DNA from: Microbacterium sp. zg-Y625 | GTDB lineage: Bacteria; Actinomycetota; Actinomycetes; Actinomycetales; Microbacteriaceae | Assembly: GCF_030246925.1 (NCBI RefSeq) | Contig: NZ_CP126740.1 | Span: 2,604,001-2,668,000 of the forward strand | DNA length: 64,000 nt | Direction of reading: 5' to 3' | Part shown: one piece after another, positions 11,552 to 37,474 of the stretch | How the letters are laid out: the number at the start of each line of letters is the position of its first letter | Numbering within the stretch: the stretch's first letter is position 1 | The notes under the pieces: model-generated | Told to the model about the DNA's origin: nothing | The model's database searches: none | Seen by the model: the letters and a program-made list of their open reading frames with translations, nothing else | Made by a program: the position numbers and the translations under genes

Positions 11552-11890
11552 GCTCCCCTGTCGCGGCTTGCCGCTTCACGGGGCGGGAAACCGGCACCGC
11601 ACTCCGTCCTGATCGCCGCCGCGCACTCACCTGTCGCGAATCGTCGCTTCACGGGGCGGGAAACCGTCATCCGCGACAGGCGAGCACTCGGGTCGGGATG
11701 GCGGGGCGGGGCGGACGCGCGTCCACAGGGCGGGACCACAGGGCGGGACCCCAGGGCAGGCCCCCGGGCGTGCCCAAAGGGCAGGTCCACAGGGCGTGCG
11801 CGCCACACGGCCCCGACCGCCCGGCCTCCGCTCACCTGTCGCGAATCGTCGCTTCACGGGGCGGGAAACCGTCATCCGCGACGGGCGAGC
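11552..11890. repeat. Cluster of three 61-bp inverted-end elements (locus 1)
   Basis: In the 461-bp gap between nadE and the PPTase-like gene there are two intact elements, at 11625-11685 and 11830-11890. Each has ends of the form (G)CTCACCTGTCGC and GCGACRGGCGAGC around a shared interior. A third copy at 11552-11612 keeps the left end and interior but has lost the right end. Between the intact copies (about 11720-11815) are short direct repeats of the type CCACAGGGCGGGA. The rest of the gap shows no coding sequence. Two further clusters of the same element occur at 21988 and 37309. Confidence 0.9.
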
Positions 11891-11959
11891 GTTCAGGCAC
11901 GCGAGCTCACCCGCCGAGCGAGCACCGCCGACCCCGCCCGCCACGGACGTCGACGACGC

Positions 11960-12538
11960 TCAGACGCGCGGCGACCCGTAGGCGATGGTGATGATCCAGC
12001 CGTCGCGTGAGAGGTCGACCAGGTGATAGCCCGTCCTGCGATCGGGCAGCCAACCCTTCTTGCGGGTCGCGTCGAGCCGCACGCGCTCGGCCGCCACGCG
12101 CACCCCGCGCCCGTCGGCTTCGAGCACGGCCTGCACGCGGGTCCAGTGGTCGAGGAGGTCGGGGATGTTGCTCTCGTCGAGCAGGTGCGAGTGCTTCTGC
12201 ATCATGTGGATGTCGGTGGCATCCGGGTGCATGTCGCGCACGTCGAGCCCCAGCGGCATGGCGGGGTCCGTCACCGCGACGACCGTCGCCGAGCGGTAAC
12301 TCGCCGTCTTCACGGCATACGGCAGGTTCTCTCCGTCACGTGAGGCGATGAGCCGCGTGTGATACCCGTAGCCACGCGGCGGCTCGCGCTCGACGCGGAT
12401 CTCATACGGCTCGCATCGCTCGAGGCCGGCGACGATCTCGCGGGTGAGGATGCGTCGGCGGTCGTGGACGCTCACGCTCGGGTCCCACCCGAGTCGAGCG
12501 GTGATGCCCTCAGGCGTGTCGAGTGGGACGGATTCCAT
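11960..12538 (-). CDS. 4'-phosphopantetheinyl transferase-like protein with altered catalytic motif
   Basis: A 192-aa protein whose layout follows Sfp-type phosphopantetheinyl transferases: a basic substrate loop, a SYRSATVVAV strand, the block LGLDVRDMHP (the usual GxDxE), and WTRVQAVLEADGRG (about 136-149) at the position of the family's W-x-x-K-E-A-x-x-K-A-D-G helix. In this reading the key Lys, Glu and second Lys are Val, Gln and Glu, so transfer of phosphopantetheine to carrier proteins is doubtful. The start ATG at 12538 follows GGGGAGAGG. No polyketide or peptide synthase is nearby. It could be a pseudoenzyme; the family assignment itself is moderately sure. Confidence 0.5.
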   Translation of the reverse strand: MESVPLDTPEGITARLGWDPSVSVHDRRRILTREIVAGLERCEPYEIRVEREPPRGYGYHTRLIASRDGENLPYAVKTASYRSATVVAVTDPAMPLGLDVRDMHPDATDIHMMQKHSHLLDESNIPDLLDHWTRVQAVLEADGRGVRVAAERVRLDATRKKGWLPDRRTGYHLVDLSRDGWIITIAYGSPRV

Positions 12539-12645
12539 GTCACACCTCTCCCCGGCAGAAGCCGGTCTTCCCATCTTCGCCCACGCGCTGCATCGCGGCC
12601 ACGGCCTCAGCCGTGAATACCCCGCGTCTGCGCGGCCGGGTCGGC

Positions 12646-12777
12646 TCAGCCGCCCGCCGAGACGATGCCGATGATTCCGGATGCCAGCATGTACAGGCCG
12701 ACGGCGCTGACGACGAGCCAGATGCCGACGCGCGCCGGCGACGGCCGGTTCTTGCCGGGGTCCACGGGGCCTGTCAT
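12646..12777 (-). CDS. Small single-pass membrane protein (43 aa)
   Basis: Short gene with a charged, Pro-rich N-terminus (MTGPVDPGKNRPSPAR) and one hydrophobic helix (about residues 17-40) ending in Gly-Gly. It lies 7 bp downstream of another small membrane-protein gene on the same strand, suggesting an operon. The N-in, helix-out architecture recalls small actinobacterial membrane proteins annotated only as hypothetical. No function can be assigned. Confidence 0.7.
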   Translation of the reverse strand: MTGPVDPGKNRPSPARVGIWLVVSAVGLYMLASGIIGIVSAGG

Positions 12778-12784
12778 CGGGGCC

Positions 12785-12970
12785 TCAGTCTCGGCGCGAG
12801 CGGGCGAACATCGCCCGCATGGCGAAGAAGACGATGATCGCGACCACGGCGACGATCGCCAGCTTGACGGCGAACATCAGCACGCTGCCCAGCACGCTCA
12901 CCAGCACCCAGGCGATCACCACCGCGACGATGATGCCGATGACGGTCCAGATCGTGCTGCTCTTGTCCAT
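12785..12970 (-). CDS. Small membrane protein (61 aa)
   Basis: Two hydrophobic stretches rich in Val, Ile and Ala (about residues 8-28 and 31-52) followed by a basic tail (RAMFARSRRD), so the C-terminus is probably cytoplasmic. A TAAGCT hexamer lies 6 nt before the ATG, which predicts a leaderless transcript that could continue into the 43-aa gene downstream. The sbcC stop is only 9 bp upstream of the start codon, so read-through from sbcDC is also possible. Function unknown. Confidence 0.75.
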   Translation of the reverse strand: MDKSSTIWTVIGIIVAVVIAWVLVSVLGSVLMFAVKLAIVAVVAIIVFFAMRAMFARSRRD

Positions 12971-12976
12971 GAGGCC

Positions 12977-12982
12977 AGCTTA
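12977..12982 (-). promoter_or_regulatory. -10 element of the small membrane-protein pair
   Basis: TAAGCT on the minus strand, 6 nt before the ATG at 12970. It overlaps the very end of sbcC. Confidence 0.5.
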
Positions 12983-15973
12983 CGAGGCCTGGGGGACCAT
13001 TTCCTGCCGGATGATGCTGGGCCCCCGGGGCGTCGCCTCGACGAGCAGCTGCGCAGGCAGCTGCTCCTTCATCGCCTCGACGTGGCTGATGACGCCCACG
13101 GTGCGGCCGCCGGCGCGCAGTTCGTCGAGGGTGCGCATCGCCAGGTCGAGTGTGTCTGCGTCGAGGGAACCGAACCCCTCGTCGATGAACAGGGTGTCCA
13201 GGCGCATGCCGCCCGCGCGCGAGGTGACGACCTCGGCCAGGCCCAGCGCGAGCGCGAGGGAGGCGAGGAAGGTCTCGCCCCCCGACAGGGACTGCGGCGG
13301 CCGCGACTGCCCGGTGTGGGCGTCGAGCACGTCGATGCCCAGGCCCGAGGCGGCACCGCGGGCCGCGCGCGCGTCGGAGTGGTGCAACGTGTACCGGCCG
13401 GCCGACATCTCGGCCAGGCGCACGTTCGCCGCCGCGACGATCTCTTCGAGCTCCGCCGCGAGGACGAACGTCTCGAGGTCCATCTTCATCGTGTTCGGCG
13501 CCCGGCCCGCGACGGTGTCCGCGAGTCTGCGCACGGCTTCGGCCTCCTGAGCGTGGGCCGCGACCGCCGCGTAGGCCTCGTCCGTCTGCACGACCAGCTC
13601 GCGCAGGCGATCGGCGACGTTCTGCGCGTCGCGTTCCGCGGCGATCGCCGCCGCGCGGGCGGTGTCTGCTGCGGCGACGGCGGACGCCGACGCATCGAGG
13701 TCGACGGCGTCGTCGGACGTTCCGGCGAGTTCGAGCTCGAGCTCGAGGGTGCGCTGGCGCGTGGCGGCGAGGTCGGCGTCGTGAGCGGCCACCCGGTCGG
13801 CGAGGGCGCTGACCGTGCGCTGGTCGCGGAGGGCTGCCGCGGCCTCGGCCGCGTCGGCGAAGGCGGATGCCGCAAGCCGCGCGTCTCGCTCCCGGACTGC
13901 CGCGACGCGGTCCTGCTCGGCGCGCTCCGACGCGGCTCGCGCGGAGTGACAGGCGCGCGCGGCGTCGCGCTGCAGCCGGGCGGCGGCCGCCCGCTCGGCC
14001 ACGGTGGCAGAGGTGCCGCGCGCATCGGCCACCGCCGCGCGGAGGTCGGCCAGGCTCGATTCGAGGGCGGCGACCGTCTCGCGCGCGGCGTTCAGGTCGG
14101 CGGCGAGCAGGTCGCGTGCCGCCTGCGACGCGACCTCGAGTTCCACGAGCTCCCGACGCTGGGCCTCGAGCTGCTGCGCGCGCTGCTCTGCGGCGGTCGC
14201 TGCGTGGAGCGCTTCTTCTGCGGCACTCAGCCGGGCCTGCAGCTCTTCTCTCCGTTCGCCCCCGGCGCGGGCAGCGGCATCGGCGTGGGCGGCACGTGCG
14301 GTGGCGGCGGCTTCTGCGGCCGCGCGCTCGGCGGCGAGGGCGGCGTCGCGATCGCTCTCGGCAGCCGCGACCAGCTCGTCGGTGACCGGCTGCGCGCCGC
14401 GCTCGGCGCGGTGGGGATGCGACGTCGAGCCGCAGACCGCGCAGGCCTCCCCATCGACCAGGGCAGCCGCCAGCTCGCCGGCGTATCCGTCGAGCCGGCG
14501 CTGCAGCAGCTCTGCCACCGTCGCGCCGGCCTGTGCGGACGCTTTGGCGGCCTCGGCATGAGCGGTCTCCCGCTCGCGCAGAGCGTCGGCGAGCGTCTCA
14601 GCCTCGCCGGCGGCGGCGGCGCGGGCGGCGAGGTCGTGGCGCTGGCGGCGTGCCCCGTCGGCGACGGCCGCAGCGGCGCGGGCGTCGGCGAGGAGTCCCT
14701 CGAGCCTCGTGCGCTCCTCGGGGATCTGTGCCCGCTGCGCGTCGAGCGTGGCGAGCTCCTGAACCAGCTCCGTCACCCGCTCCCCTGCAGCGGCGAGTTC
14801 GGCCTCGCGCAGCGGCAGCTGCGCTTCCTGCTGGGCGGCGACGGCCCACACGGCGAGGTCGCCGGTGAGTCGCTCGTCGAGCGCCGCGAGGTCGGTGTCG
14901 GCCTCGGCGTCGGGCGCCGCGTCCCGCCAGGCGCTCTCCGCCACAGCCACGGCAGCGGCAGCATCGGTCGCGGCCTTCTCCGCCCGATCGGCGGCCTCGA
15001 GCGTCGAGCGCACCGCCTCTGCGGCACGCGCGCGGTCGAGCGTGGCCCGGTCGGCCGCGACGTCGGCCGTCTCGGCCTCGAGAGCCGTCAGCCGCTGCCT
15101 CGCCTGGGCGAGGTCGGCGTGGGCGCGCGCGAGCGCGACGGCGGCGGCGTGGGCGGTCGTGGCATCGGCGAATGCCCGGTCGGCATCGGCGCGCGCGCGG
15201 GTGAGGGTGTCGAGTCGGTACTCGGCGCGCTGCACGGCGAGCACCGCCGCATCGCGACGCCCCGCCAGGTCGGCCGGGGTGTCGCCCTCTCCCCCCAGCC
15301 CCTGCTCGTCGATGAGGCGTTCGGCCAGATCGAGCAAGGTGCGGGCGTGCTCGCCGAGGGTATCGAGCGCGGCCTGTGCCGTCTTGCTGCGCTCACCGAG
15401 CGCGCGGACGTAGTCCTCGTAGCGGCGCGTACCGAACAGGGTGCGCAGCAGCGGCTGGCGCTCGCTGCCGGAAGCGAGGAGGAAGCGGGAGAACTTGTTC
15501 TGCGCCAGCAGGATGACCTGCTGGAACTGCTGGGCGTTGAGACCGAGGATCTCGTCGAGGGCCAGCCCCACATCTCGCGGCTTGGCAGCCCGGCCGATCC
15601 AGACCCCATCGACCTGCTCTTCGAGCTCGGCGCTGGTGGGCTCAGTCGTCAGGCCCCCGCCGCGTCGTGCCGGCCGCTGGTACTCCGGCGCGCGCGTCAC
15701 CCGCCACCGGCGGTCGCCGACGGTGAACTCCAGGCGAACCCGGGTGGGGTCCTCTGGTGCGCAGTGGTCGCTGCGCAGCCGCTTGTCGCCGGATTCGTAA
15801 CGCGGCACGCTGCCGTACAGCGCGAAGCTGACCCCGTCGAGGATGCTCGACTTGCCCGCCCCGGTGCGGCCCGAGATCAGGAAGATCCCGTCGCGCTCGA
15901 AGGCATCGAAATCCACCGTCTGCGTCGTGAGGAAAGGGCCGAACCCGGTGAGGTCGAGGCGGTGCAGCTTCAC
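12980..15973 (-). CDS. sbcC: Nuclease SbcCD subunit C (SMC-like ATPase)
   Basis: ATPase subunit of the SbcCD (bacterial Mre11-Rad50) complex, which opens and trims DNA hairpins and protein-blocked ends. The 997-aa protein has Walker A GRTGAGKSS (about 36-44) and long Ala/Glu/Arg-rich coiled coils. The zinc-hook motif CAVCG sits at mid-protein (about 514). The C-terminal lobe has the signature LSGGETF and Walker B LFIDEGFGSLD (about 934). All parts of a Rad50-type protein are present and in order. Its start overlaps the stop of sbcD by 4 bp (ATGA), the normal sbcD-sbcC order. Confidence 0.97.
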   Translation of the reverse strand: MKLHRLDLTGFGPFLTTQTVDFDAFERDGIFLISGRTGAGKSSILDGVSFALYGSVPRYESGDKRLRSDHCAPEDPTRVRLEFTVGDRRWRVTRAPEYQRPARRGGGLTTEPTSAELEEQVDGVWIGRAAKPRDVGLALDEILGLNAQQFQQVILLAQNKFSRFLLASGSERQPLLRTLFGTRRYEDYVRALGERSKTAQAALDTLGEHARTLLDLAERLIDEQGLGGEGDTPADLAGRRDAAVLAVQRAEYRLDTLTRARADADRAFADATTAHAAAVALARAHADLAQARQRLTALEAETADVAADRATLDRARAAEAVRSTLEAADRAEKAATDAAAAVAVAESAWRDAAPDAEADTDLAALDERLTGDLAVWAVAAQQEAQLPLREAELAAAGERVTELVQELATLDAQRAQIPEERTRLEGLLADARAAAAVADGARRQRHDLAARAAAAGEAETLADALRERETAHAEAAKASAQAGATVAELLQRRLDGYAGELAAALVDGEACAVCGSTSHPHRAERGAQPVTDELVAAAESDRDAALAAERAAAEAAATARAAHADAAARAGGERREELQARLSAAEEALHAATAAEQRAQQLEAQRRELVELEVASQAARDLLAADLNAARETVAALESSLADLRAAVADARGTSATVAERAAAARLQRDAARACHSARAASERAEQDRVAAVRERDARLAASAFADAAEAAAALRDQRTVSALADRVAAHDADLAATRQRTLELELELAGTSDDAVDLDASASAVAAADTARAAAIAAERDAQNVADRLRELVVQTDEAYAAVAAHAQEAEAVRRLADTVAGRAPNTMKMDLETFVLAAELEEIVAAANVRLAEMSAGRYTLHHSDARAARGAASGLGIDVLDAHTGQSRPPQSLSGGETFLASLALALGLAEVVTSRAGGMRLDTLFIDEGFGSLDADTLDLAMRTLDELRAGGRTVGVISHVEAMKEQLPAQLLVEATPRGPSIIRQEMVPQAS

Positions 15974-17121
15974 GTCGCGGCCTCGGCGAGCGTGCGGTCG
16001 TCGAGCATCTCGTCGATGAGCGCCGTCTCGCGGTCGCTGGCACCGTCGCCCTCGCGCACGTGGCGGAGGAAGGCGTCGAGCAGCTCACGGTCGCTGCGGG
16101 CCGACCGCACCCGCTGGGCGTAGCTGCGGCCATCGTCAGCCGCAGCGTTCGCGGGCCGGTGCGCGACGCAGGCGCAGTGCGAGAACCGCTCCTGCAGCCG
16201 GCGCATCGGATCGCGCTGCGGCAAGGTGTCGGTGTACTCCACGGACACCCAGTCGCCCTCGTACTCGGCGAAGCGCTCGTCGCTCAGCAGCTCGTCGAGC
16301 GGCCCTACCAGCGTGGTCAGGCGTCGGGGCACGGGAAGCTCGAGCCATGTCACGGCGGCGAGGCCGCCGGCATCCAGGTCGACCAGCCACGACCCGCGTG
16401 GCTTGTTGCCCTCGCCGAAGCTGTAGTGCAGCGGGGCGCCCGCGTACCGCACGCGCTCGGAGAGCCGCTGCCGGCCGTGGATGTGCCCCAGCGCCATGTA
16501 GTCGACGCCGTCGAAGGTCGACAGCGGCACGACGTCGAGTCCGCCCTGCTGGATGTCCCGCTCGAGGTGCGGCGTCGGCTCCACGCCCGCGGCGAAGCAG
16601 TGGGCCACGGCGACCGACCGCTCGCCTTCACGGTGGGCCAGGTCGGCGCGGACGAGGTCCATCGCGTGGGCGACCACGTCGGCCTGGCACCGCACGCCCG
16701 GCCAGGTGTGACGCAGCAGCGCGGGCTCGAGGAACGGGATGCCGTAGATGTGCACCGGCCCGTCCTCGTCGGTCGCCGTGATCGGCGTTCCCACCGTCTG
16801 CGGGTCGGTGACGACGTGCACGCCGGGCCGCAGCAGGGCGGACTGGAAGCCGAGGCGGGCGGCGGAATCGTGGTTGCCGCTCGTGACGACCACCTGCGCT
16901 CCGGTGTCGGCGAGCGCGGCGAGGGTGTCGCTGAGCAGGGCATAGCAGCCGGCCGCGGGCGTTGCCGAGTCGAACACGTCGCCCGCCACGATCACGACGT
17001 CGACGTCGTTCTCGCGCACCTGCGACACCAGCGCGTCGAGCACGCCACGGAGCGCATCGAGCGTGGAGTGACCGTGGAAGGTCCGCCCGATGTGCCAGTC
17101 GGAGGTGTGCAGGATTCGCAT
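15970..17121 (-). CDS. sbcD: Nuclease SbcCD subunit D (exonuclease)
   Basis: Metallophosphoesterase nuclease subunit partnering SbcC; 383 aa, the usual length. The metal-binding motifs are intact: SDWHIGRTF (about 7-15), VAGDVFDS (about 45-52), SGNHDSAARL (about 80-90) and GHIHGRQ (about 210-216). The downstream sbcC gene overlaps by 4 bp. A TAGCGT -10 box lies 6 nt before the ATG, so the sbcDC transcript is predicted to be leaderless. It is divergent from an MFS gene, and the two starts are 64 bp apart. Confidence 0.97.
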   Translation of the reverse strand: MRILHTSDWHIGRTFHGHSTLDALRGVLDALVSQVRENDVDVVIVAGDVFDSATPAAGCYALLSDTLAALADTGAQVVVTSGNHDSAARLGFQSALLRPGVHVVTDPQTVGTPITATDEDGPVHIYGIPFLEPALLRHTWPGVRCQADVVAHAMDLVRADLAHREGERSVAVAHCFAAGVEPTPHLERDIQQGGLDVVPLSTFDGVDYMALGHIHGRQRLSERVRYAGAPLHYSFGEGNKPRGSWLVDLDAGGLAAVTWLELPVPRRLTTLVGPLDELLSDERFAEYEGDWVSVEYTDTLPQRDPMRRLQERFSHCACVAHRPANAAADDGRSYAQRVRSARSDRELLDAFLRHVREGDGASDRETALIDEMLDDRTLAEAAT

Positions 17122-17127
17122 GTCTTC

Positions 17128-17133
17128 ACGCTA
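17128..17133 (-). promoter_or_regulatory. -10 element of sbcDC (leaderless)
   Basis: TAGCGT on the minus strand, 6 nt before the sbcD ATG. Confidence 0.6.
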
Positions 17134-17171
17134 ACCGGACCCTCCGACATCGCCCTGGAGGATCGCCCGCG

Positions 17172-17177
17172 TAGGCT
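17172..17177 (+). promoter_or_regulatory. -10 element of the MFS gene at 17186
   Basis: TAGGCT, 8 nt before the GTG start. It lies about 40 bp from the opposing sbcD -10 box, so the two promoters must overlap in their upstream parts. Confidence 0.55.
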
Positions 17178-17185
17178 GTTCCGCC

Positions 17186-18529
17186 GTGACCACCGTCTTC
17201 CCCTCCGCCTCGCCCACCTGGCGCGGCTGGACGATCTGGGGGGTCGGCGTCGCCGCCTACATCCTCTCGGTGGTCAACCGCACCTCGCTGTCGGCGGTGG
17301 GGGTGGACACCGCGCATCGCTTCGACATCGATGCTTCGACGCTGTCGATGTTCGCCGTCATCCAGCTCGGCGTGTACGGGGCCATGCAGATCCCGGTGGG
17401 GCTCATGCTCGACCGGTACGGCGCGCGCCCTCTCATCACGGCGGGCATGCTGCTCATGGCCGTCGGCCAGCTCGTGATGGCACTGTCGCCGAATGTCGGC
17501 ATCGCGATCGCCGCCCGCATGCTGCTCGGCGCCGGCGACGCGGCCGTCTTCCCCAGCGTGCTGCGCCTCATCGCGACGTGGTTCCCGTCCCAGCGCGGTC
17601 CCGTCATGGTGCAGGTGACGGGCATCGTCGGCCAGCTCGGGCAGATCGTGGCCGTCGTGCCGCTCGCGGCGCTGCTGCACGCGACGACCTGGTCCATCGC
17701 CTTCGGCAGCGTTGCGGGGCTCGGCGTGCTGTTCGCGGTGCTCGTGTTCGCCGTCATCCGCAACCACCCGCCCGACCGCGACCGCGATGTCACCGTCGAC
17801 ACCGACACCGGCGCGATCCGGGTCGTCACGTCGGCCGTCGACAACCGCGTCGGCATCCGCGCCGCCTGGTCGCACCCGGGCACGCGCCTCGCCTTCTGGT
17901 CGCACTTCACGACGCCCTTCGCCGGGTCGGCGTTCGTCATGCTGTGGGGCTTCCCCTTCCTCACCGCGGGGGAAGGCCTGTCACAGGGGCAGGCGGCGCT
18001 CGTGACGACCGTGTACGTCCTGGCCGGCATCCTGATCGGGCCGATCGTGGGGTCGCTGTCGACCCGGGTGCCGACGCTCCGCTCCCGGGCGCTGGTACTG
18101 CCCGCCATCGCGGTGCAGGCCGTGGCCTGGCTGATCGTGATCGCCCAGCCCGGACCCGCTCCGCTGTGGATGCTGCTCGGCCTCGCCGTCGCGCTGGCGA
18201 TGGGCGGCCCGGCATCGATGGTGGCCTTCGACCACGCCCGCACGCACAACCCTTCGCACCGGCTCAGCACGGCGACGGGCATCACCAACTCCGGCGGGTT
18301 TCTCGCCGGCCTCATCGCGGTGTTCCTGATCGGGGTGGCCCTGGACCTGCAGGGGGCGGGCACCCCGGAGACCTACACGCTGGACGCCTTCCGCCTCGCC
18401 TTCCTCACCCAGGTGCCGCTGTGGGTCGTCGGGTCGGTCTTCATCGTCGTGGAGCGCAAGCGCACCCGCATCCACATCGGACTGGACCAGCCGCGCCGGC
18501 GGCGGCGTCAGGCCACGCGCGGCGCGTAG
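17186..18529 (+). CDS. MFS transporter
   Basis: A 447-aa major facilitator superfamily permease with about 12 hydrophobic segments. The loop after TM2 has GLMLDRYGARP, the MFS signature (D-R-x-G-R/A-R). The TM4-5 region GAGDAAVFPSVLRL(I)ATWFP resembles the sialate/nitrate-nitrite-like and NarK-type subfamilies that have GxGxA motifs. The C-terminus is basic and cytosolic (RRRRQATRGA). The substrate cannot be deduced. The 3' end overlaps the converging DUF2277 gene by 22 bp. The start GTG is set by the -10 box and by the first residues before TM1. Confidence 0.88.
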   Translation: MTTVFPSASPTWRGWTIWGVGVAAYILSVVNRTSLSAVGVDTAHRFDIDASTLSMFAVIQLGVYGAMQIPVGLMLDRYGARPLITAGMLLMAVGQLVMALSPNVGIAIAARMLLGAGDAAVFPSVLRLIATWFPSQRGPVMVQVTGIVGQLGQIVAVVPLAALLHATTWSIAFGSVAGLGVLFAVLVFAVIRNHPPDRDRDVTVDTDTGAIRVVTSAVDNRVGIRAAWSHPGTRLAFWSHFTTPFAGSAFVMLWGFPFLTAGEGLSQGQAALVTTVYVLAGILIGPIVGSLSTRVPTLRSRALVLPAIAVQAVAWLIVIAQPGPAPLWMLLGLAVALAMGGPASMVAFDHARTHNPSHRLSTATGITNSGGFLAGLIAVFLIGVALDLQGAGTPETYTLDAFRLAFLTQVPLWVVGSVFIVVERKRTRIHIGLDQPRRRRRQATRGA

Positions 18530-18792
18530 CGTCCTGCCTTCTCCGCCCGGGCGCGCGCCTTGGCCGCTTCGTCCTCGCGATTCTTCGGCGGCGCCACGGC
18601 GACGAGATCGGCCAGCAGATGCCGCGTCGCATGCTCCACGTCGGCGACGGCGCGGTCGAAGGCCTGTTGATTGGCCTTGGAGGGCTTCGCCGTGCCGGCG
18701 ATCTTGCGCACATACTGCAGCGCGGCGGCGTGCACCTCGTCATCGGTGGCGGCGGGTTCGAAGTTGTGCAGAGTGTGGATGTTGCGGCACAT
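18508..18792 (-). CDS. DUF2277 domain-containing protein
   Basis: A 94-aa protein beginning MCRNIHTLHNFEPAATDDEV, the characteristic start of DUF2277, followed by AAALQYVRKIAG and a basic tail. It is widespread in Actinobacteria with no known function; the conserved Cys and His near the N-terminus suggest metal or nucleic-acid contact, which is speculation. TACGGT lies 6 nt before the ATG, so the mRNA is probably leaderless. It is divergent from a hydrolase gene and converges on the MFS gene with a 22-bp overlap. Confidence 0.93.
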   Translation of the reverse strand: MCRNIHTLHNFEPAATDDEVHAAALQYVRKIAGTAKPSKANQQAFDRAVADVEHATRHLLADLVAVAPPKNREDEAAKARARAEKAGRYAPRVA

Positions 18793-18798
18793 GCGGTC

Positions 18799-18804
18799 AC
18801 CGTA
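18799..18804 (-). promoter_or_regulatory. -10 element of the DUF2277 gene
   Basis: TACGGT on the minus strand, 6 nt before the ATG at 18792. Confidence 0.55.
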
Positions 18805-18832
18805 CGCTCAGGATGGGGGCGCTTCCAGCCCC

Positions 18833-18838
18833 TACTGT
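18833..18838 (+). promoter_or_regulatory. -10 element of the hydrolase gene at 18845
   Basis: TACTGT, 6 nt before the GTG start. It supports this start over upstream in-frame codons. Confidence 0.6.
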
Positions 18839-18844
18839 CGGAGC

Positions 18845-20330: not shown

Positions 20331-20428
20331 GGTGCGCTCCTCTCGTCGCTCTTCCACTCTGACCCTCCCCCGATCCGCCCGCACGGGGTTGACGAACGCC
20401 CACGCCGCGCGTAGGGCGACCGGCGGGC

Positions 20429-21987: not shown

Positions 21988-22154
21988 GCTCGCCCGTCGC
22001 AAACGGTCGCTCGCGGGCCGGCCAGACCGCGATTCGCGACAGGCGAGCACGCCGGCCGCGACCACCGGCGAGCCCTCGGCGAGTGCCGCCCTCGCTCGCC
22101 CGTCGCAAACGGTCGCCTACCGGCCCGCCAGACCGCGATTCGCGACAGGCGAGC
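21988..22154. repeat. Pair of 61-bp inverted-end elements (locus 2)
   Basis: Two copies at 21988-22048 and 22094-22154 have ends GCTCGCCCGTCGC and GCGACAGGCGAGC and nearly the same interior. A 45-bp spacer separates them. The 40 bp following each copy are also similar (ACGCCGGCCGCGACCACCGG), so the pair arose by duplication of a unit of about 106 bp. They fill most of the 304-bp gap between the wHTH gene and the glycosylase gene. Nothing else is seen there apart from the latter's promoter. Confidence 0.9.
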
Positions 22155-28866: not shown

Positions 28867-28872
28867 GCGCGC

Positions 28873-29985: not shown

Positions 29986-30048
29986 ATGCTGACCCTGAAC
30001 CCGTCCCTCGACGTCCTGGTGGCGAGCATCGCGGAAGCCGCGTCGTGA
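29986..30048 (+). CDS. Possible 20-codon upstream ORF coupled to the NAD(P)-binding gene
   Basis: ATG at 29986 with GGGAG 11 nt before it opens a 20-codon frame (MLTLNPSLDVLVASIAEAAS). Its TGA overlaps the GTG of the next gene in GTGA, a normal translational-coupling arrangement. It may be a true leader, or it may simply deliver ribosomes to the next start. It resembles nothing known. The preceding 250 bp back to 29734 hold no other gene that I can support. Confidence 0.35.
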   Translation: MLTLNPSLDVLVASIAEAAS

Positions 30049-30785
30049 GGATCGCCGTCGCGGGCGGCACGGGCACCGCCGGCCGCCGCGTGGTGGAGGT
30101 GGCCCGCTCCCGTGGCCACGACGTCGCGATCGCGACGCGCGGCGCCGGAGCCGACGCGACGACCGGCGATGGGCTGCGCGAGGCGCTCCAGGGCGTCGAC
30201 GTCGTCATCGACACCCTCAACGTCACCACCCTCGATGCGCGGACGAGCGAGGAGTTCTTCCGCGCCAGCACCGGCCGCCTGCTCGCCGCGGAGGGCGCGG
30301 TCGGGGTCGGCCACCACGTGGCGCTGTCCATCGTCAACTGCGATCGGGCGCCGCACGGCTACTACGCCGGCAAGGTCGCGCAGGAGGCGCTCATCACCGC
30401 CGGCGCGGTGCCGTGGACGATCCTGCGGACGACGCAGTTCCACGACTTCGCCGCGCAGATGTTCGCGTCGGCGCGCATCGGTCCCCTGCACCTGGCACCC
30501 CGGATGCGCACCCAGCCGGTCTCGCTCGACGACGTCGCCGCGCGGCTGGTCGACCTCGCCGAGGCACCGCCCGCAGGGTGGGCGCGGGACCTCGCCGGAC
30601 CGCAGGAGGAGTCACTGGTGGCGATGGTCCGCGGCTACGCGCGGGCGACGGGCCACCACGGCCCGCTCCCTGCCTTTCCGCTCCCGGGGCCGCTCGGCCG
30701 CGCGCAGCGCGACGGCACGCTGCTGCCGGGGCCCGACGCCGACCGCGGCACCGTCACCTTCGCGCAGTGGCTCGCGACGCAGTGA
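30045..30785 (+). CDS. NmrA/SDR-type NAD(P)-binding protein
   Basis: A 246-aa atypical short-chain dehydrogenase. It starts MRIAVAGGTGTAGRRVVE with the G-x-x-G-x-x-G nucleotide loop and has VALSIVNCDRAPHGYYAGKVAQE, where Tyr and Lys are spaced Y-x-x-x-K. It also has WTILRTTQFHDF, a hallmark of NmrA-like and YtfG-like proteins. Substrate unknown; relatives act as redox sensors or quinone reductases. The GTG start is fixed by the overlap with a small upstream ORF. It converges on the aldo/keto reductase gene. Confidence 0.85.
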   Translation: MRIAVAGGTGTAGRRVVEVARSRGHDVAIATRGAGADATTGDGLREALQGVDVVIDTLNVTTLDARTSEEFFRASTGRLLAAEGAVGVGHHVALSIVNCDRAPHGYYAGKVAQEALITAGAVPWTILRTTQFHDFAAQMFASARIGPLHLAPRMRTQPVSLDDVAARLVDLAEAPPAGWARDLAGPQEESLVAMVRGYARATGHHGPLPAFPLPGPLGRAQRDGTLLPGPDADRGTVTFAQWLATQ

Positions 30786-30786
30786 C

Positions 30787-30811
30787 CGGATGCCGGAGGC
30801 ATCGGCATCCG
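30787..30811. terminator. Hairpin between converging genes
   Basis: CGGATGCC and GGCATCCG form a perfect 8-bp stem around a 9-nt loop, starting 2 bp after the stop codon at 30785. It has no T-tract, and the stem consists of the heptamer that is over-represented across this window. It may therefore be either a weak bidirectional terminator or a chance pairing. Confidence 0.4.
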
Positions 30812-30815
30812 CGCG

Positions 30816-31646
30816 TCACATCTCCTCGTGGGTCTCGGGGTCACCGTCCCAGAGACGTCCCCGCTCCAACGCGCTCAGGGCCGCGATCTCGTCGTCGGTC
30901 AGCGCGAAGCCGAAGACATCGGCGTTCTCGCGCTGGCGCTCGGCGCTCGCGGACTTCGGGATGGGGGTGGACCCGATCTGCGTGTGCCACCGCAGCACCG
31001 CCTGCGTCGGGGTGACCCCGTGCGCGGCGGCGATGTCGGCGAGCACCGGCTCCGCCAGCAGCTCGCTGCGCCGGGCGAGCGGGCTCCAGCTCTCGGTGCG
31101 GATGCCCTGCGCTTCGTGGAACGCCCGCAGCTCGGCCTGGGGGAAGTAGGGGTGAAGCTCCACCTGGTTCACCGCCGGCACGACGCCGGTCTCGTCGACC
31201 AGTCGTTCGAGCATCTGCTGCGTGAAGTTCGAGACGCCGATGCTCTGCACCGTGCCGCGCTCGCGCAGCTCGATCATCGCCCGCCAGCTGTCGACGTACT
31301 GATCCACCGAGGGGTTCGGCCAGTGGATGAGGTAGAGGTCGATGCGGTCCAGCCCCAGACGCTCGAGCGAGCCGGCGGCGCTGGCGAGGGTCTTGTCGTA
31401 GCCGTGGTCCCGTCCGGGGAGCTTCGTGGTGACGATGAGCTCGTCGCGGATGCCGCTGCGGCGCACCGCCTCGCCCACCTCGGTCTCGTTCTGGTAGTTC
31501 ACCGCCGAGTCCAGCAGCCGGTAGCCGCTGTCGATCGCCGCGACCATGGCCTCGACGCCGTCGTCGCCGCGCAGGTTGTAGGTGCCGAGTCCGAGCTCGG
31601 GGAAGGCCGTGTCGTCGTTGAGGGTGACCGTGGGAATCGTGAGCAT
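30816..31646 (-). CDS. Aldo/keto reductase
   Basis: A 276-aa NADPH-dependent AKR. The catalytic tetrad is intact: Asp46, Tyr51, Lys75 (TTKLPG) and His108 (LIHWPNP). The GVSNFTQQ and EVELHPYFPQ-like motifs are present (here QVELHPYFPQ). The C-terminal KSASAERQRENADVFGF is the NADPH 2'-phosphate-binding region. It resembles AKR5 2,5-diketo-D-gluconate or methylglyoxal reductases; the substrate is not established. A TAGCGT box 6 nt before the ATG predicts a leaderless mRNA. Confidence 0.94.
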   Translation of the reverse strand: MLTIPTVTLNDDTAFPELGLGTYNLRGDDGVEAMVAAIDSGYRLLDSAVNYQNETEVGEAVRRSGIRDELIVTTKLPGRDHGYDKTLASAAGSLERLGLDRIDLYLIHWPNPSVDQYVDSWRAMIELRERGTVQSIGVSNFTQQMLERLVDETGVVPAVNQVELHPYFPQAELRAFHEAQGIRTESWSPLARRSELLAEPVLADIAAAHGVTPTQAVLRWHTQIGSTPIPKSASAERQRENADVFGFALTDDEIAALSALERGRLWDGDPETHEEM

Positions 31647-31652
31647 GCGCCC

Positions 31653-31658
31653 ACGCTA
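31653..31658 (-). promoter_or_regulatory. -10 element of the aldo/keto reductase gene
   Basis: TAGCGT on the minus strand, 6 nt before the ATG at 31646. Confidence 0.6.
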
Positions 31659-31672
31659 CGCCCCGGCATCCG

Positions 31673-32500
31673 TCACGCGGGTCGGCCAGGGAACTCCAGC
31701 AGTGTCTCGATCGTCGTGATCACGCCGAACTCGGCGTTGGACGGCGCGCGATGGCGGGCGATCGCCGCCACGTCGGGGTGCGCGTCCGCCATCGCATACG
31801 ACCAGTCCGCCGCCTGCAGCAGCTCGAGGTCGTTGAGGTAGTCGCCGAACGCGACGGTCTGGGCGGGAGTGATCCCGAGAGCGCGTTGCAGATTCCGCAG
31901 CGCGACGCCCTTGTTCACTCCGGCGTTCATGATGTCGATCCAGTGCGCGCCTGAGACGACCACCTGGTGGGTCCGGCGCAGGTCGTCGAGCGCGGGCGCG
32001 GTGTGCGTCTCGCCGCCGTCGTGGTCGTAGATCGCGAGCTTCAGCACCTGGTCCTGCTGGGCGAGCACGTCGTCGACGACGCTCAGCCGCGCGTAGTACT
32101 TCTCCACCTCGGCGAGGAACCGTGGATCGGTGTCTTCGATGTACGCCGACTCCTTGCCGCACACCACGACGCCGGCGTGCAGCGCACCATCGGCGACGAG
32201 ACGACGCATCCGCAGGATCAGGTCCCGCACGAACGCGGGGTCGAGGGCGTCGGAGCTCACCTCGACGCCCTCCCGCACGACGTAGGCGCCGTTCTCGGCG
32301 ATGTAGTCGAGGTCACGGCCCGCTTCGCCGAAGGAGCGCTGCAGGGTCGCCAGCTGCCGACCGCTGGCCGGCGCGAACGCGATGCCGCGCTCGCGCAGCC
32401 TGTCCAGCAGCGGCCAGAGCCCGTCGGGGATGCGTCCGGCGGGATCGAGCAGCGTGCCGTCCATGTCGACGGCGATGAGGCGGATGTCGGGAGTCGTCAC
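31673..32500 (-). CDS. HAD-superfamily phosphatase (Cof type)
   Basis: A 275-aa class IIB HAD hydrolase: nucleophile motif DMDGT (Asp12 and Asp14), ASGRQ (motif II), NKGVALRNL and FGDYLNDLELL (motif III/IV). Such enzymes dephosphorylate sugar phosphates, flavin or pyridoxal precursors. The start is a GTG preceded by GGAGGG. It lies 26 bp upstream of the AKR start and may be co-transcribed with it, though the AKR also has its own promoter. Confidence 0.93.
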   Translation of the reverse strand: MTTPDIRLIAVDMDGTLLDPAGRIPDGLWPLLDRLRERGIAFAPASGRQLATLQRSFGEAGRDLDYIAENGAYVVREGVEVSSDALDPAFVRDLILRMRRLVADGALHAGVVVCGKESAYIEDTDPRFLAEVEKYYARLSVVDDVLAQQDQVLKLAIYDHDGGETHTAPALDDLRRTHQVVVSGAHWIDIMNAGVNKGVALRNLQRALGITPAQTVAFGDYLNDLELLQAADWSYAMADAHPDVAAIARHRAPSNAEFGVITTIETLLEFPGRPA

Positions 32501-32602
32501 CCCTCCATGCTCTCAGGCGCCGCCAGCGCCGCCCCCGGCCTTCCGGTTATCCCGAAGGAAAGACTCCGGATGCCGGGGCGGCGGCGGGCCGTGCCCCACC
32601 CC

Positions 32603-32608
32603 TACCGT
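32603..32608 (+). promoter_or_regulatory. -10 element of the kinase/regulator/DUF4097 operon
   Basis: TACCGT, 6 nt before the ATG at 32615. Confidence 0.55.
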
Positions 32609-32614
32609 GGAGCC

Positions 32615-33889
32615 ATGACCTCAACCCCCGCACCCGCCGCCACGGCCCCGACCGCGCCGCGCCCGTCCGCGCGGCGCCTCCTCGGCGCCCTGGCGCAGCT
32701 GGCGGCCATGGCCGTCGCCGGGACCGTCCTGTTCACGATGCTCAGCGTGCTGCTGAGCATCGGGCTGAGCCTGCTGCTCGTCATCGGCATCGGCATCCTC
32801 TTCCTCATCGCCTTCGTCTACGTGCTCTATGCCACCGCGTGGCTGGAGTACGCCCGCGCCGAGGGGCTCTACGGCTACGGACTGCCGGCGCTGCGGACGC
32901 GTCGGATGACGCGCCCCGGCTTCGGCGGCTGGCTGCGCATGGTGTGGCAGCAGTTCACCGATGGCCCGATGTGGCGTGGCGTCGCCGGTGCGGCCCTCGC
33001 GACCCTGCTCGGGTCGATGGTCATCGTGCTGGCCTCGACCATCGCCACCGGTGTGGGGCTGCTGGTCTCCCCCCTCTTCGGCGCCGAGGTGATCCCCTCC
33101 CCCTGGTTCGGCCTCATGCTCGAGCCGGGCTGGGCGGCGCTCGTCGGCGGCATCGCCGTGCTGGTCAGCGCTGCACTGCTGTTCGGCATCGCGGTGCTCG
33201 ACGGCGTGCTCACCCGCGCCATCCTCGTGCCGTCGCGCGAAGCGGTGCTCGCCCAGCAAGCCGCCACGTCCGACGTGCAGCGCGCCGGCGCCGTGCGTGC
33301 CAGCGAGGTGGAGCGCACCCGCATCGAACGCGACCTCCACGACGGCGTGCAGCCGCGGCTCGTCTCGGTCGGCATGACACTGGGACTCGCGCAGCAGAAG
33401 ATCGACAGCGATCCGGATGCCGCGCGCGACCTCATCGCCGAGGCGCACACCTCCACGAAGGCCGCGATCACAGAGTTGCGCCAGCTGGCGCGCGGCATCC
33501 ACGCCTCGGTGCTCGACGACCGCGGGCTCGACGCCGCACTTTCGGCCCTCGCCGCCCGATCGCACGTTCCCGTGCACCTGGACGTGCGGGTCGAGGGTCG
33601 CTGCACCCGCGAGGCGGAAGCCGCCGTGTACTTCGCCATCGCGGAGTCGCTCACCAACGCCGCCAAGCACTCCCGGGCGGCCGAATGCCGCGTGATCGTG
33701 CGACGCCGCGACGACGGCACCCTCTGGGCGCGCGTCGAGGACAACGGCACCGGCGGCGCCCGCGTGATCCCCGGCGGAGGTCTCGACGGCATCCACAACC
33801 GCATCATCGCCGCCCGCGGCACCGTGCGTCTCGACAGCCCCGTCGGGGGACCGACCTCTCTGGAAGTGAGCGTGCCGTGCGCATCCTGA
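32615..33889 (+). CDS. Sensor histidine kinase (NarL/LiaS-type, HisKA_3)
   Basis: A 424-aa membrane kinase. After a Pro/Ala-rich start there are about four hydrophobic helices in two pairs (about 25-65 and 130-200), interrupted by the YARAEGLYGYGLPALRTRRMTRPGFGGWLRMVWQQF loop typical of the actinobacterial putative sensor domain. The HisKA_3 box is ERTRIERDLHDGVQPRL with the phospho-His near 242. The ATPase N-box is AIAESLTNAAKHS, and the G-box is DNGTGGARVIPGGGLDGI. The stimulus is unknown, perhaps membrane or envelope state. It overlaps the response-regulator gene by 13 bp. Confidence 0.93.
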   Translation: MTSTPAPAATAPTAPRPSARRLLGALAQLAAMAVAGTVLFTMLSVLLSIGLSLLLVIGIGILFLIAFVYVLYATAWLEYARAEGLYGYGLPALRTRRMTRPGFGGWLRMVWQQFTDGPMWRGVAGAALATLLGSMVIVLASTIATGVGLLVSPLFGAEVIPSPWFGLMLEPGWAALVGGIAVLVSAALLFGIAVLDGVLTRAILVPSREAVLAQQAATSDVQRAGAVRASEVERTRIERDLHDGVQPRLVSVGMTLGLAQQKIDSDPDAARDLIAEAHTSTKAAITELRQLARGIHASVLDDRGLDAALSALAARSHVPVHLDVRVEGRCTREAEAAVYFAIAESLTNAAKHSRAAECRVIVRRRDDGTLWARVEDNGTGGARVIPGGGLDGIHNRIIAARGTVRLDSPVGGPTSLEVSVPCAS

Positions 33890-34554
33890 TCTGCGAAGAC
33901 TCCGCGCTGCTGCGCGAAGGGCTCGTGCGCCTGCTCGAAGACGCCGGTCACAGCGTGGTCGCCGCCCTGCCGGACGCGCAGGACCTGCAGGCGGTGGTCG
34001 CCGAGACCGCCCCCGACCTCTGCATCCTGGACGTGCGACTGCCGCCCACCTACACCGACGAAGGCATCCGGGCGGCGCTCGCGCTGCGGGCGGAGCACCC
34101 GCACCTGCCCGTGCTGGTGCTCAGCCAGTACGTCGAGGAGCGGTACGCGTCGGAACTGATCGCCGGCCGCGGCGGCGCCCTGGGGTACCTCCTCAAGGAC
34201 CGCGTCGCGGATGTCGCCGACTTCGTCGAGACCGTCGCCCAGATCGGCGCGGGCGGCACGGTGTTCGACCCCGAAGTCGTCTCACAGCTGCTCGCCCGGC
34301 GCACCCGCGACGACCGCATGGCCCGGCTGACCGACCGCGAGCGCACCGTGCTCGCCCTGATCGCCGAAGGCAAGTCGAACCAGGCGATCGCCCGCGCACT
34401 GCACGTCAGCGAGGCGAGCGTGGAGAAGTACATCACCTCCCTCTTCCAGAAACTCAACCTCGAGCAGGACGAGTCGGGCAACCGGCGCGTGCTGGCAGCG
34501 CTCGCACATCTCGAGCACGGCGGCGACCTGCCGCAGACAGGAGCATCACGATGA
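33877..34554 (+). CDS. LuxR/NarL-family response regulator
   Basis: A 225-aa regulator pairing with the kinase just upstream. The receiver has acidic residues at 7-8 (CEDS), the phospho-acceptor Asp52 (CILDVRLPP), the switch Ser near 80 (VLSQY) and Lys near 104 (LLKDR). The C-terminal HTH is LTDRERTVLALIAEGKSNQAIARALHVSEASVEKYITSLFQKL. The GTG start sits inside the kinase gene, and the stop overlaps the DUF4097 start (ATGA), so three genes are coupled. Confidence 0.95.
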   Translation: MRILICEDSALLREGLVRLLEDAGHSVVAALPDAQDLQAVVAETAPDLCILDVRLPPTYTDEGIRAALALRAEHPHLPVLVLSQYVEERYASELIAGRGGALGYLLKDRVADVADFVETVAQIGAGGTVFDPEVVSQLLARRTRDDRMARLTDRERTVLALIAEGKSNQAIARALHVSEASVEKYITSLFQKLNLEQDESGNRRVLAALAHLEHGGDLPQTGASR

Positions 34555-35414
34555 GCACGACACTCACGCCCCCGCCGGGGCCCCAGCCCTCCCCCGTCAC
34601 CCCGCCGCCCGCGCCATCGCGCAACGGGGCGGGCCGCGTGGTGGCGATCATCGCCATCGTCGTGGGCGCGGTGGTCCTCATCGGCGCCGTCGCCACCGGC
34701 GTCATCGGCTCCATCGTGCGCGCGTCGGGGTCGTCGGACGAGCGCATCGTCGTCGACGCGACGGGTGTCGACGCCCTCGACGTCGAGGTCTCCGCCGGTG
34801 ACGTGCGGGTGGTGTTCACCGACACCGACGAGGCGGTGCTGGATGTGACCGCCGATGCCGGGGCGGGACGGTGGACCCTCGCCCGCGAGGGCGATGAGCT
34901 CGTCGTGCGCTCCCCGCAGCGCTGGTTCGGCGGCTGGTGGTTCTACGACGGCCCCACGCGGGTCGTGCTCGAGCTGCCCGAGAGCCTGCAGGACGCCGCG
35001 CTCGACGCGAAGCTCACCCTGTCGGCCGGCTCCCTCGACGTCGACGGCGATTTCGGCACGCTCGACCTCGAGGTGAACGCCGGCGAGCTGACCCTGGCGG
35101 GCGCTGCGGCCGAGGTCGCCGCGAGTGTCAACGCCGGCCGCGCCGACCTGGAGATCGCCGATGTGGCCACCGCCGACCTCGACGTCAGTGCCGGTGGGCT
35201 GAAGGCGGTGTTCACCGGCGATGCGCCCGACGACGTCGCGATCGACGTCAGCGCCGGGTCGCTCGACCTCGCGGTGCCGAGCGGCGCGTACCGCGTCGCC
35301 TCCGATGTGTCGGCGGGGGGCCTCGACAACCGTCTCGAGACGTCCACGCAGGCCTCACGGCTCATCACGGTCAGCCTGTCGGCCGGCGACGTCACCCTGC
35401 GGTCGGGGCGCTGA
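34551..35414 (+). CDS. Membrane-anchored DUF4097-type beta-repeat protein
   Basis: A 287-aa protein with a Pro-rich cytosolic start, one transmembrane helix (VVAIIAIVVGAVVLIGAVATG, about 31-51) and an extracytoplasmic part. That part is built from at least eight short repeats with (V/L)(S/N)AG at the turn, such as VSAGDV, LSAGSL, VNAGEL and VSAGGL. This is the right-handed beta-helix or adhesin-like DUF4097 fold. It is the third gene of the kinase/regulator operon, so it is probably the output or the envelope sensor of the system. It ends before a strong terminator. Confidence 0.88.
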   Translation: MSTTLTPPPGPQPSPVTPPPAPSRNGAGRVVAIIAIVVGAVVLIGAVATGVIGSIVRASGSSDERIVVDATGVDALDVEVSAGDVRVVFTDTDEAVLDVTADAGAGRWTLAREGDELVVRSPQRWFGGWWFYDGPTRVVLELPESLQDAALDAKLTLSAGSLDVDGDFGTLDLEVNAGELTLAGAAAEVAASVNAGRADLEIADVATADLDVSAGGLKAVFTGDAPDDVAIDVSAGSLDLAVPSGAYRVASDVSAGGLDNRLETSTQASRLITVSLSAGDVTLRSGR

Positions 35415-35446
35415 CCCCACGACCGCCTCAGCGCCCTCGCCCCCCG

Positions 35447-35479
35447 AAGGGCCGGTCGGACACCCTCCGACCGGCCCTT
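35447..35479 (+). terminator. Rho-independent terminator
   Basis: AAGGGCCGGTCGGA and TCCGACCGGCCCTT form a 14-bp perfect stem with a 5-nt loop, just after the DUF4097 gene. The same stem recurs at 61606-61639. Confidence 0.9.
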
Positions 35480-35526
35480 CGCGCTGCCCGCCGGCCTCCG
35501 CGTGGACGGGCGCCCGCGCGCGGGTC

Positions 35527-35532
35527 TAGCGT
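35527..35532 (+). promoter_or_regulatory. -10 element of pgi
   Basis: TAGCGT, 6 nt before the GTG start of pgi. Confidence 0.6.
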
Positions 35533-35538
35533 TGACGT

Positions 35539-37221
35539 GTGACTGCGCCGATCGATGCCACCTCCACCTCTGCCTGGAACGAACTCGTCGCCCTCCGCGA
35601 CGGCTTCTCCCCCGACCTGCGGGGCTGGTTCGCCGACGACCCCCGCCGCGCCGAGCGGCTCAGCCTGCCGGTGGGCGACCTGCACGTCGACCTGTCGAAG
35701 AACCTCGTCACCGACGAGATCCTCGCCGCCCTCGTGCGACTGGCCGAGCAGACCGGCGTCGCCGAGCGCTACGCGGCGATGCTGGCCGGCGAGCACATCA
35801 ACACCACCGAGGACCGCGCGGTGCTGCACACCGCTCTCCGCCGCCCCGCCGGCGCCTCGCCCGCGCTCGTCGTCGACGGCCAGGACGTCGACCACGACGT
35901 GCACGAGGTGCTCGACGCCGTGAGCGCGTTCGCCGAGCGGGTGCGTTCGGGCGAATGGGTGGGCGTCACCGGCAAGAAGGTGCAGACCATCGTCAACATC
36001 GGCATCGGCGGGTCGGACCTCGGCCCGGTGATGGTGTCCGAGGCGCTGCAGCCGTACGCGGATGCCGGCATCCACGCCCGGTTCGTGTCGAACATCGACC
36101 CCACCGACATCGCGCAGAAGACCGCCGACCTCGACCCCGAGACGACGCTGTTCATCGTGGCATCCAAGACGTTCACGACGCTCGAGACGCTGACGAACGC
36201 CCGCCTCGCGCGCGACTGGCTGTGGCGGGGCCTCGCGCAGACGGGCGCGATCGACGACTCGGATGCCGCCCGCACCGACGCCGTCGCCCACCACTTCGTG
36301 GCCGTCTCGACGGCGCTCGACAAGGTGGCCGCCTTCGGCATCGACCCCGCCAACGCCTTCGGGTTCTGGGACTGGGTGGGCGGCCGGTACTCCGTCGACT
36401 CCGCGATCGGACTGTCGCTGGCGATCGAGCTCGGGGCCGACGTCTTCCGGCAGATGCTCGCGGGCTTCCACGATGTCGACGAGCACGTGCGCTCCACGCC
36501 GCTCGAGCGGAACGTCCCCGTGCTGATGGGGCTGCTGAACGTCTGGTACTCGAACTTCCTCGGCTCGCAGTCCCACGCGGTGCTGCCCTACGCGCAGCAG
36601 CTGCACCGGTTCGCGGCGTACCTGCAGCAGCTGACGATGGAATCCAACGGCAAGTCGGTGCGCTGGGACGGCACGCCCGTCACCACCGACACCGGCGAGG
36701 TGTTCTGGGGCGAGCCCGGCACCAACGGACAGCACGCTTTCTACCAGCTGATCCACCAGGGGACCCGGCTGATCCCGGCGGACTTCATCGCCTTCGCGAA
36801 CCCCGCCTACCCGCTCACCGACGACGGTCGCGATGTGCACGGGCTGTTCCTGGCGAACTTCCTCGCGCAGACCAAGGCTCTGGCGTTCGGCAAGACGGCC
36901 GCCGAGGTCGAGGCCGAGGGGACCACGGGGCCGCTCGTCGCAGCGCGCACCTTCCCCGGCAACCGGCCGACCACGTCGATCTTCGCGCCGGCGCTCACCC
37001 CGCGGGTGCTGGGTCAGCTGATCGCCCTGTACGAGCACATCACCTTCACGCAGGGCGTGATCTGGGGCATCAACTCCTTCGACCAGTGGGGTGTGGAGCT
37101 CGGCAAGCAGCTGGCCACCCAGATCGCACCGGCGATCGAGGGCGACGCCGACGCGCTCGCGGCGCAGGATGCCTCGACCCGCGCGCTGCTGGAGTACTAC
37201 CGGGCCCACCGCGAGTACTGA
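35539..37221 (+). CDS. pgi: Glucose-6-phosphate isomerase
   Basis: Interconverts glucose-6-phosphate and fructose-6-phosphate in glycolysis and gluconeogenesis. At 560 aa it is the usual bacterial/eukaryotic long form. Visible hallmarks are [18 protein letters not shown] (about 155-172), [17 protein letters not shown] (about 211-227), [28 protein letters not shown] (the isomerase signature with the active-site His near 395) and [13 protein letters not shown] (active-site Lys, about 514-526). The GTG start is supported by a -10 box 6 nt upstream. It stands alone and ends before the 61-bp repeats of locus 3. Confidence 0.98.
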
Positions 37222-37308
37222 CGCGGGCGACGGGGGAGGTCGGTCGCCCGACCGGGACCGGTCGGCGTGGCCATCGCCGCGGGCGGGGTCCTGCCGTGCC
37301 CAGCATCC

Positions 37309-37474
37309 GCTCGCCTGTCGCGAAACGCGGCTCGGCGGCGCCGCAGGGGACAGAATGCGACAGGCGAGCCCGCGCGCGGGCGGGCAGCGCGGCGCCGCCG
37401 ACCACCGGCATCCGCTCGCCTGTCGCGAAACGCGGCTCGGCGGCGCCGCAGGGGACAGAATGCGACAGGCGAGC
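37309..37474. repeat. Pair of 61-bp inverted-end elements (locus 3)
   Basis: Two identical copies at 37309-37369 and 37414-37474 have perfect 13-bp inverted ends GCTCGCCTGTCGC and GCGACAGGCGAGC, a 44-bp spacer and an interior rich in GGCGGCGCC. Both are preceded by GCATCC. They lie in the 282-bp gap where pgi and the S9 peptidase gene converge. Nothing else is seen in the gap. Confidence 0.92.

Follow-up and report, generated by a model that had tools for sequence, protein, structure and literature searches.

A 64-kb stretch of the Microbacterium sp. zg-Y625 chromosome (bases 2604001-2668000 of the 3.26-Mb single-contig genome, numbered with dnaA at position 1; called the window here) contains several copies of a 61-bp element with inverted ends. 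These elements are a real dispersed palindromic family, present beyond chance. A gene outside the window, at 2681762-2682781, is their likely partner and codes for a protein which combines a predicted AbiEi-like fold with a Vsr-like nuclease. We consider it likely that the elements are duplex DNA sites of this protein, with probable autoregulation at the copies that flank the gene and, as a hypothesis, nuclease-driven scattering of the others. Similar gene-and-palindrome pairs are found in many actinomycetes. They point to a repeat system that has so far gone unrecognised, where a nuclease owns the DNA sites on which it lands.

A dispersed family of 61-bp elements

The 12-mer CTCGCCTGTCGC, with at most one mismatch, has 106 sites in the whole genome, compared with 47 for the reversed pattern. 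Among 100 sites listed, there are 18 converging pairs, in which a plus-strand site lies upstream of a minus-strand site at a distance of up to 150 bp. The offset is an identical 47 bp in 17 of the 18, which corresponds to a 61-bp element. A covariance model (R1), trained on 24 aligned copies from the genome, detects 26 places at E <= 4.4e-6, and 25 of these have 61 bp while one has 62 bp. The excess over chance and the constant length, on which an earlier note written from the letters of the window had made the family depend, are thus both found. The same note had described six intact 61-bp copies and a degenerate one, and all are confirmed.

11552-11599 (approximate), plus strand: degenerate element with left arm and middle retained and right arm gone
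11625-11685, plus strand: 61-bp element, half-sites 11625-11647 and 11663-11685, spacer 15 bp
11830-11890, plus strand: 61-bp element, half-sites 11830-11852 and 11868-11890
21988-22048, plus strand: 61-bp element, half-sites 21988-22010 and 22026-22048
22094-22154, plus strand: 61-bp element, half-sites 22094-22116 and 22132-22154
37309-37369, plus strand: 61-bp element, half-sites 37309-37331 and 37347-37369
37414-37474, plus strand: 61-bp element, half-sites 37414-37436 and 37452-37474

The paired copies are separated by 45 bp at the second locus and 44 bp at the third, as had been given (44-45 bp). The neighbouring genes, named nadE, a winged helix-turn-helix (wHTH) gene and pgi, are assigned by Pfam to NAD synthase, response-regulator wHTH and pgi. 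Genome-wide, the elements fall into about 20 loci. As 14 of the 20 have a single full copy, the arrangement in pairs or triples is correct for the window and does not extend to the genome. Eleven loci are located between convergent, six between co-oriented and three between divergent genes (orientations are from a home-made gene caller). Most loci (17 of 20) are therefore downstream of at least one gene and the location is mainly 3′ intergenic, so that a position always 3′ of a gene, as claimed, is too strict. At L033 (G000:C1:180900-181800) and L041 (G000:C1:2554100-2554480), tandem half elements occur beside full ones; in the latter, arms recur every 52 bp at 2554229, 2554281 and 2554333.

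Half-site anatomy and fixed length

Each 61-bp element consists of two inverted 23-bp half-sites across a 15-bp spacer. Read inwards, a half-site starts with a strong 13-bp arm (CTCRCCYGTCGC plus one more outer base), which is followed by a weaker 10-bp part, RWAT-N-GYSGC. The same consensus applies to both halves, and GTCGC/GCGAC motifs repeat at 10-bp steps, on one helix face. Thus, the constant ends of the original description are retained, but the supposedly free, locus-specific core is not entirely free because it holds the second part of each half-site.

Length is fixed in other genomes as well. In G017 (Microbacterium sp. CFH 31415), all 37 elements from 19 loci have 51 bp in a scan that covered 35-80 bp, the remaining rows being reused arms of these 37 or, once, a weak 78-bp pairing. 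All eight elements of G028 have 51 bp, and all 19 of the close relative G031 have 61 bp. The spacer is 5 bp in the 51-bp form and 15 bp in the 61-bp form, so that the two versions are one DNA turn apart; a few elements have 50, 60 or 62 bp. A scan of named genomes for elements of 49 to 64 bp returned 42 stretches, 33 corresponding to 51-bp and six to 50-bp elements. All of these 39 are from Microbacterium or a Microbacteriaceae, while the other three are from unrelated organisms.

This geometry has a counterpart in type IV toxin-antitoxin systems. According to the description in PMC7319586, AbiEi binds two 23-bp inverted repeats that are 3 bp apart, and Rv2827c binds repeat pairs 13 bp apart, the authors noting the extra 10 bp. 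In both cases, the spacers differ by exactly 10 bp (3/13 there, 5/15 here); our partition of the half-site into 13 + 10 bp had been set before these operator data were known to us. Because the repeat geometry matches, we infer that one partner monomer would occupy each 23-bp half-site on duplex DNA. The 5- or 15-bp spacer would hold two monomers on the same helix face, and we propose this as the reason for a length fixed at 51 or 61 bp despite a drifting interior.

Alternatively, the elements could act as RNA or cruciform hairpins, such as terminators or mRNA 3′ ends. Compared with shuffled sequence, the six intact copies in the window do fold better (z -2.1 to -4.0), and many gene-adjacent copies are near-perfect palindromes with matched changes (see below). 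However, in 19 non-redundant dispersed copies the two halves are complementary at 158 of 323 positions, compared with 161 expected on random re-pairing. For G017, complementarity is even lower than expected (218 of 432 versus 245), a deficit which should not be over-read since the tandem-array copies are kin. There is thus no covariation between the halves of dispersed copies in the two species, and pairing as RNA or cruciform is unlikely to be the conserved feature of these copies. In addition, a hairpin has no need of a fixed length, three of the 20 loci are between divergent genes, and no Rfam family reaches threshold within the 64-kb window. At L034 and L044 we noticed, by eye, a separate, ordinary-looking terminator, with the element upstream of it. 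The structured RNA end, which had been offered as one possibility, is therefore not supported, and we consider hairpins a very improbable explanation.

The partner gene and its protein

A search for gene families that recur beside elements pointed to the gene at 2681762-2682781 (339 amino acids). It has elements on either side, at 2681603-2681663 and 2682840-2682900. In Pfam, the protein shows only a weak C-terminal MTES_1575 nuclease domain below the cut-off. The N-terminal part of about 227 residues is predicted to adopt an AbiEi-antitoxin-like fold (a winged helix and a second domain). For the last 110 residues or so, a Vsr/EDxHD nuclease fold is predicted, EDxHD standing for the homing-endonuclease-like type, and the conserved acidic and histidine residues are present.

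In a sequence search of the PDB, no relative was convincing. In a viral structure library, the matches extend over about 80-200 columns and are mainly to proteins of DUF559 and endonuclease type. PADLOC defence families had no match for two of three proteins, the third showing a weak mREase_II match (17 bits). Among the homologues listed, those that carry a name in the sources are annotated as 'hypothetical protein' or 'DUF559 domain-containing protein'. Matches on plasmids are partial and confined to four records, and a single phage record matches. The phage record MT837503.1 ('Bacteriophage sp.', 6.7 kb, obtained from human faeces) codes for a full-length relative of the partner protein at 4956-5966 (32.5% identity). 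Several species have the same order of genes at the partner locus, and by eye it is shared by two genera as well.

A second set of elements with other arms (CTCCGGTGTCGC, called type B) exists in the same genome. It accompanies the gene at 226997-227947, which has an element just downstream (E 0.009) and only a single arm-like site upstream. Elsewhere in the genome, 660554 is the site of a type-B arm pair with exactly 61 bp, while G000:C1:1349212-1349611 (L172) has a tandem array of four type-B arm sites at a period of about 112 bp. The search for the type-B pattern also came across tandem repeats of about 21 bp with TTCCGGTGTCGC (G000:C1:378828-379013). In L290 (G000:C1:957300-962000), a 65-bp near-perfect palindrome (2523-2587) starts 13 bp after a small PF18741-type gene; no matching copy of it is found on the other side of this gene.

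Pairing of genes and palindromes in actinomycetes

Elements are found on both sides of related genes in other genomes. With a second model (R2, E up to 0.0075), flanking elements of 61-62 bp were found in our genome and in G031, G182, G120, G105, G174, G086, G104, G191 and G198, and flanking 51-bp elements in G028 and G017 (three plus three in the latter). We also applied a model-free test, whose sole requirement is two inverted repeats of the same length, with arms that match and a distance of 700-1900 bp. PF18741 has matches in every one of 28 genomes, and 89 of the loci listed were examined, 30 being returned by the search and 59 picked by hand in a selection that skips almost every long open frame and certain others. 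This test is passed by 29 of the 89 loci, compared with five of 440 cross-locus controls and none of 53 tiles of other DNA.

Across the class, a full-length profile of the protein family has hits in 68 of 197 genomes. The search returned 30 loci, of which 19 pass the model-free test versus eight of 288 controls; arms common to several loci inflate this control number. Outside the Microbacteriaceae, 14 of 21 loci pass. When the length was left free between 40 and 80 bp, the two copies were equal in 37 of 44 loci, off by one in five, and off by 19 and 29 in the remaining two (this count has no separate control). Half-site similarity increases with protein identity: it is 0.40-0.43 below 45%, 0.53 at 45-60% and 0.73 above 60% (Spearman 0.16, Mantel P 0.001). 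Arms vary among gene lineages, even inside a single genome: G120 has four such genes with four different arms.

Dispersed cognate copies of the flanking elements are present in our genome and in G017, G174 and G120. Dispersal is at low copy number in three genomes. In G174 there are nine pairs, two of them flanking (reversed control 0); G120 has two flanking pairs and two at other places, all four with one length; G382 has flanking sites and one further arm. In genus g144 of the same class, an arm like GTTGATCATGGAG is common to several species and surrounds related genes (L324, L325, L326, L329 and L336), and the one genome checked has only one further arm besides the flanking ones.

Two observations weigh against such a pairing. 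The model-free test leaves 60 of the 89 PF18741 loci without a palindrome pair. In G104 and G198, the dispersed elements that were inspected do not match the flanking ones. The main unexplained result for a purely double-stranded site concerns the flanking copies, of which many are near-perfect palindromes: among 36 pairs, partly chosen for symmetry, 15 of 38 inner changes between the two copies are matched on the other side, with about 4% expected by chance. Such matched changes could arise if new copies start out as perfect palindromes and degenerate afterwards. One possible route of copying would be a cut at the site, followed by palindrome-templated repair that writes a fresh, symmetrical copy.

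Constraint and spread

For 13 orthologous pairs of elements from our genome and G031, 11 of 338 arm sites and 44 of 455 interior sites are different. The 13-bp ends thus change three times less than the interior, and both members have 61 bp in all 13 pairs. (Two of 15 candidate pairs had been dropped, with 20 and 27 of 61 bases different.) In the neighbouring 60-bp flanks of 11 loci, 121 of 1132 aligned sites differ and there are many gaps, some being alignment end effects. From these comparisons, arms and spacing are under constraint, with an interior that drifts at about the rate of its surroundings. Within Microbacteriaceae, a cross-species model has hits in 56 of 160 genomes and in 38 of 85 genera. 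Its matches, among those listed, have mostly 61 bp and some 60 or 62 bp; as this model has 61 positions and favours palindromes, they were not used for arguments on length or covariation. The arm sequence varies from genus to genus.

The loci also differ between close relatives. G031 has no element at three of our loci, and our genome has none at one G031 locus; at these four loci no clean empty site was found, since the gap differs beyond the element and the insertion boundary is unreadable. Within the zg-Y625 genome, 10 of 18 dispersed loci are within 250 kb of the partner gene. The loci crowd one side of the chromosome, and a replichore pattern was considered as the cause; in this one genome, distance to the gene fits better. 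The crowding is significant when elements are randomized (P 5e-5) and only weakly so when the gene position is randomized (P 0.03). The 3′ intergenic copies, the presence differences and the crowding suggest nuclease-driven spreading, although none of them proves it. We suppose that the nuclease would act on its sites in a REPtron-like partnership with an unrelated enzyme, and that the elements on both sides of the gene probably serve its autoregulation.

The main competing explanation is an ordinary regulon without any mobility, where the AbiEi-like protein would be a transcription factor with the dispersed elements as operators. The arms are constrained at orthologous loci, three of 20 loci are between divergent genes, in one case a called gene starts 25 bp after the end of the element, and AbiEi and Rv2827c are described as autoregulating at such repeats (PMC7319586). 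However, 17 of 20 loci are downstream of at least one gene, 11 of them between convergent ones. In addition, some loci differ between close relatives and the arms vary from genus to genus. The nuclease residues are fully retained, which would be superfluous in a pure regulator. We regard the pure regulon as unlikely.

It is also conceivable that the gene and its flanking elements form a transposon-like unit, with terminal inverted repeats of an insertion sequence and with dispersed elements that are solo ends or miniature inverted-repeat transposable elements (MITEs). The gene is bracketed at both ends, single elements are dispersed, and more than half of the dispersed loci are near the gene. 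However, the flanking copies are of mixed orientation (18 inverted, 12 direct and six ties in the 36 pairs), the gene order at the partner locus is conserved, and matches on plasmids and phages are few. Target-site duplications of 2, 3, 4, 5, 6, 8 and 9 bp were seen at 2, 2, 0, 0, 0, 0 and 0 of 25 elements, with 2.96, 0.58, 0.50, 0.08, 0.17, 0 and 0 expected from mismatched pairs. With no clear duplication at these 25 elements, the MITE-like family that had been envisaged finds no support, and a transposon-like unit is quite improbable.

The elements resemble repetitive extragenic palindromic (REP) sequences and REPINs, which are mobilised by REP-associated tyrosine transposases (RAYT, TnpA_REP). 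They are intergenic, palindromic and found in tandem clusters, and a gene is flanked by the repeats, as in the REPtrons of PMC8266576. However, Y1_Tnp (PF01797) has no match in any of the 35 genomes of the genus that were examined, including our own, and GTAG is not found within 6 bp of the boundary at any of 50 ends of 25 elements. The predicted fold of the partner protein is unrelated. A true REP/RAYT family is already contradicted by these data and we give it practically no weight. Of the original proposal of a REP-like family served in trans, the dispersed palindromes and a probable trans-acting partner persist; the RAYT-like transposase is replaced by the AbiEi-fold/Vsr-like nuclease as candidate.

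Relation to known systems

REPtrons, in which RAYT genes go together with REP, REPIN or BIME repeats, have been described as chromosomal genes flanked by copies of a palindromic repeat (PMC8266576). They share with the system reported here the flanked chromosomal gene, cognate intergenic copies, a gene-specific repeat sequence and tandem clusters. In contrast, the partner here is not an HUH Y1 enzyme, the GTAG tag is absent, the elements have two phased 23-bp half-sites of fixed total length, and there are tens of copies, not hundreds. With the AbiEi and Rv2827c operators, the elements have in common the 23-bp inverted-repeat pairs, a site beside the protein's own gene and the AbiEi-like predicted fold. 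They differ from AbiEi operators, as described in PMC7319586, by the nuclease fusion and by sites that are on both sides of the gene and dispersed.

The predicted C-terminal nuclease fold with conserved E, H and D is like that of Vsr, EDxHD homing endonucleases (I-Bth0305I), DUF559 and MTES_1575; the AbiEi-type N-terminal part and the dispersed palindromic sites set the present protein apart. The name of the MTES_1575 domain comes from a long HEPN/helicase fusion protein described in PMC3710099. MITEs, too, are short and dispersed with inverted ends, whereas here no clear target-site duplication and no transposase partner were found, and the elements have constrained arms, a fixed length and a drifting interior.

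We found no paper on the gene-palindrome association in PubMed Central (PMC), and none that has DUF559 together with 'inverted repeat'; most subscription journals and preprints are outside the scope of PMC, so that absence in print is not proven. Every known family that was examined fails a defining feature or shows no dispersal, and the system would work like a REPtron on an AbiEi-like operator. More tentatively, it may represent a new class of repeat system: nucleases of AbiEi-fold/Vsr type, each with a private palindrome that would be copied to intergenic sites without a transposase, two phased monomers on the 23-bp halves keeping the copies functional.

For a group of unexplained actinomycete proteins, those of the DUF559/MTES_1575 type, a concrete pairing of gene and DNA is now available. 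The system could also be a second and independent answer to the question raised by REP and RAYT, namely how the gene of a chromosomal enzyme maintains a family of short palindromes in a bacterial genome. With the site beside so many of these genes, specificity is readable from the sequence, and binding and cleavage are directly testable for dozens of gene-palindrome pairs.

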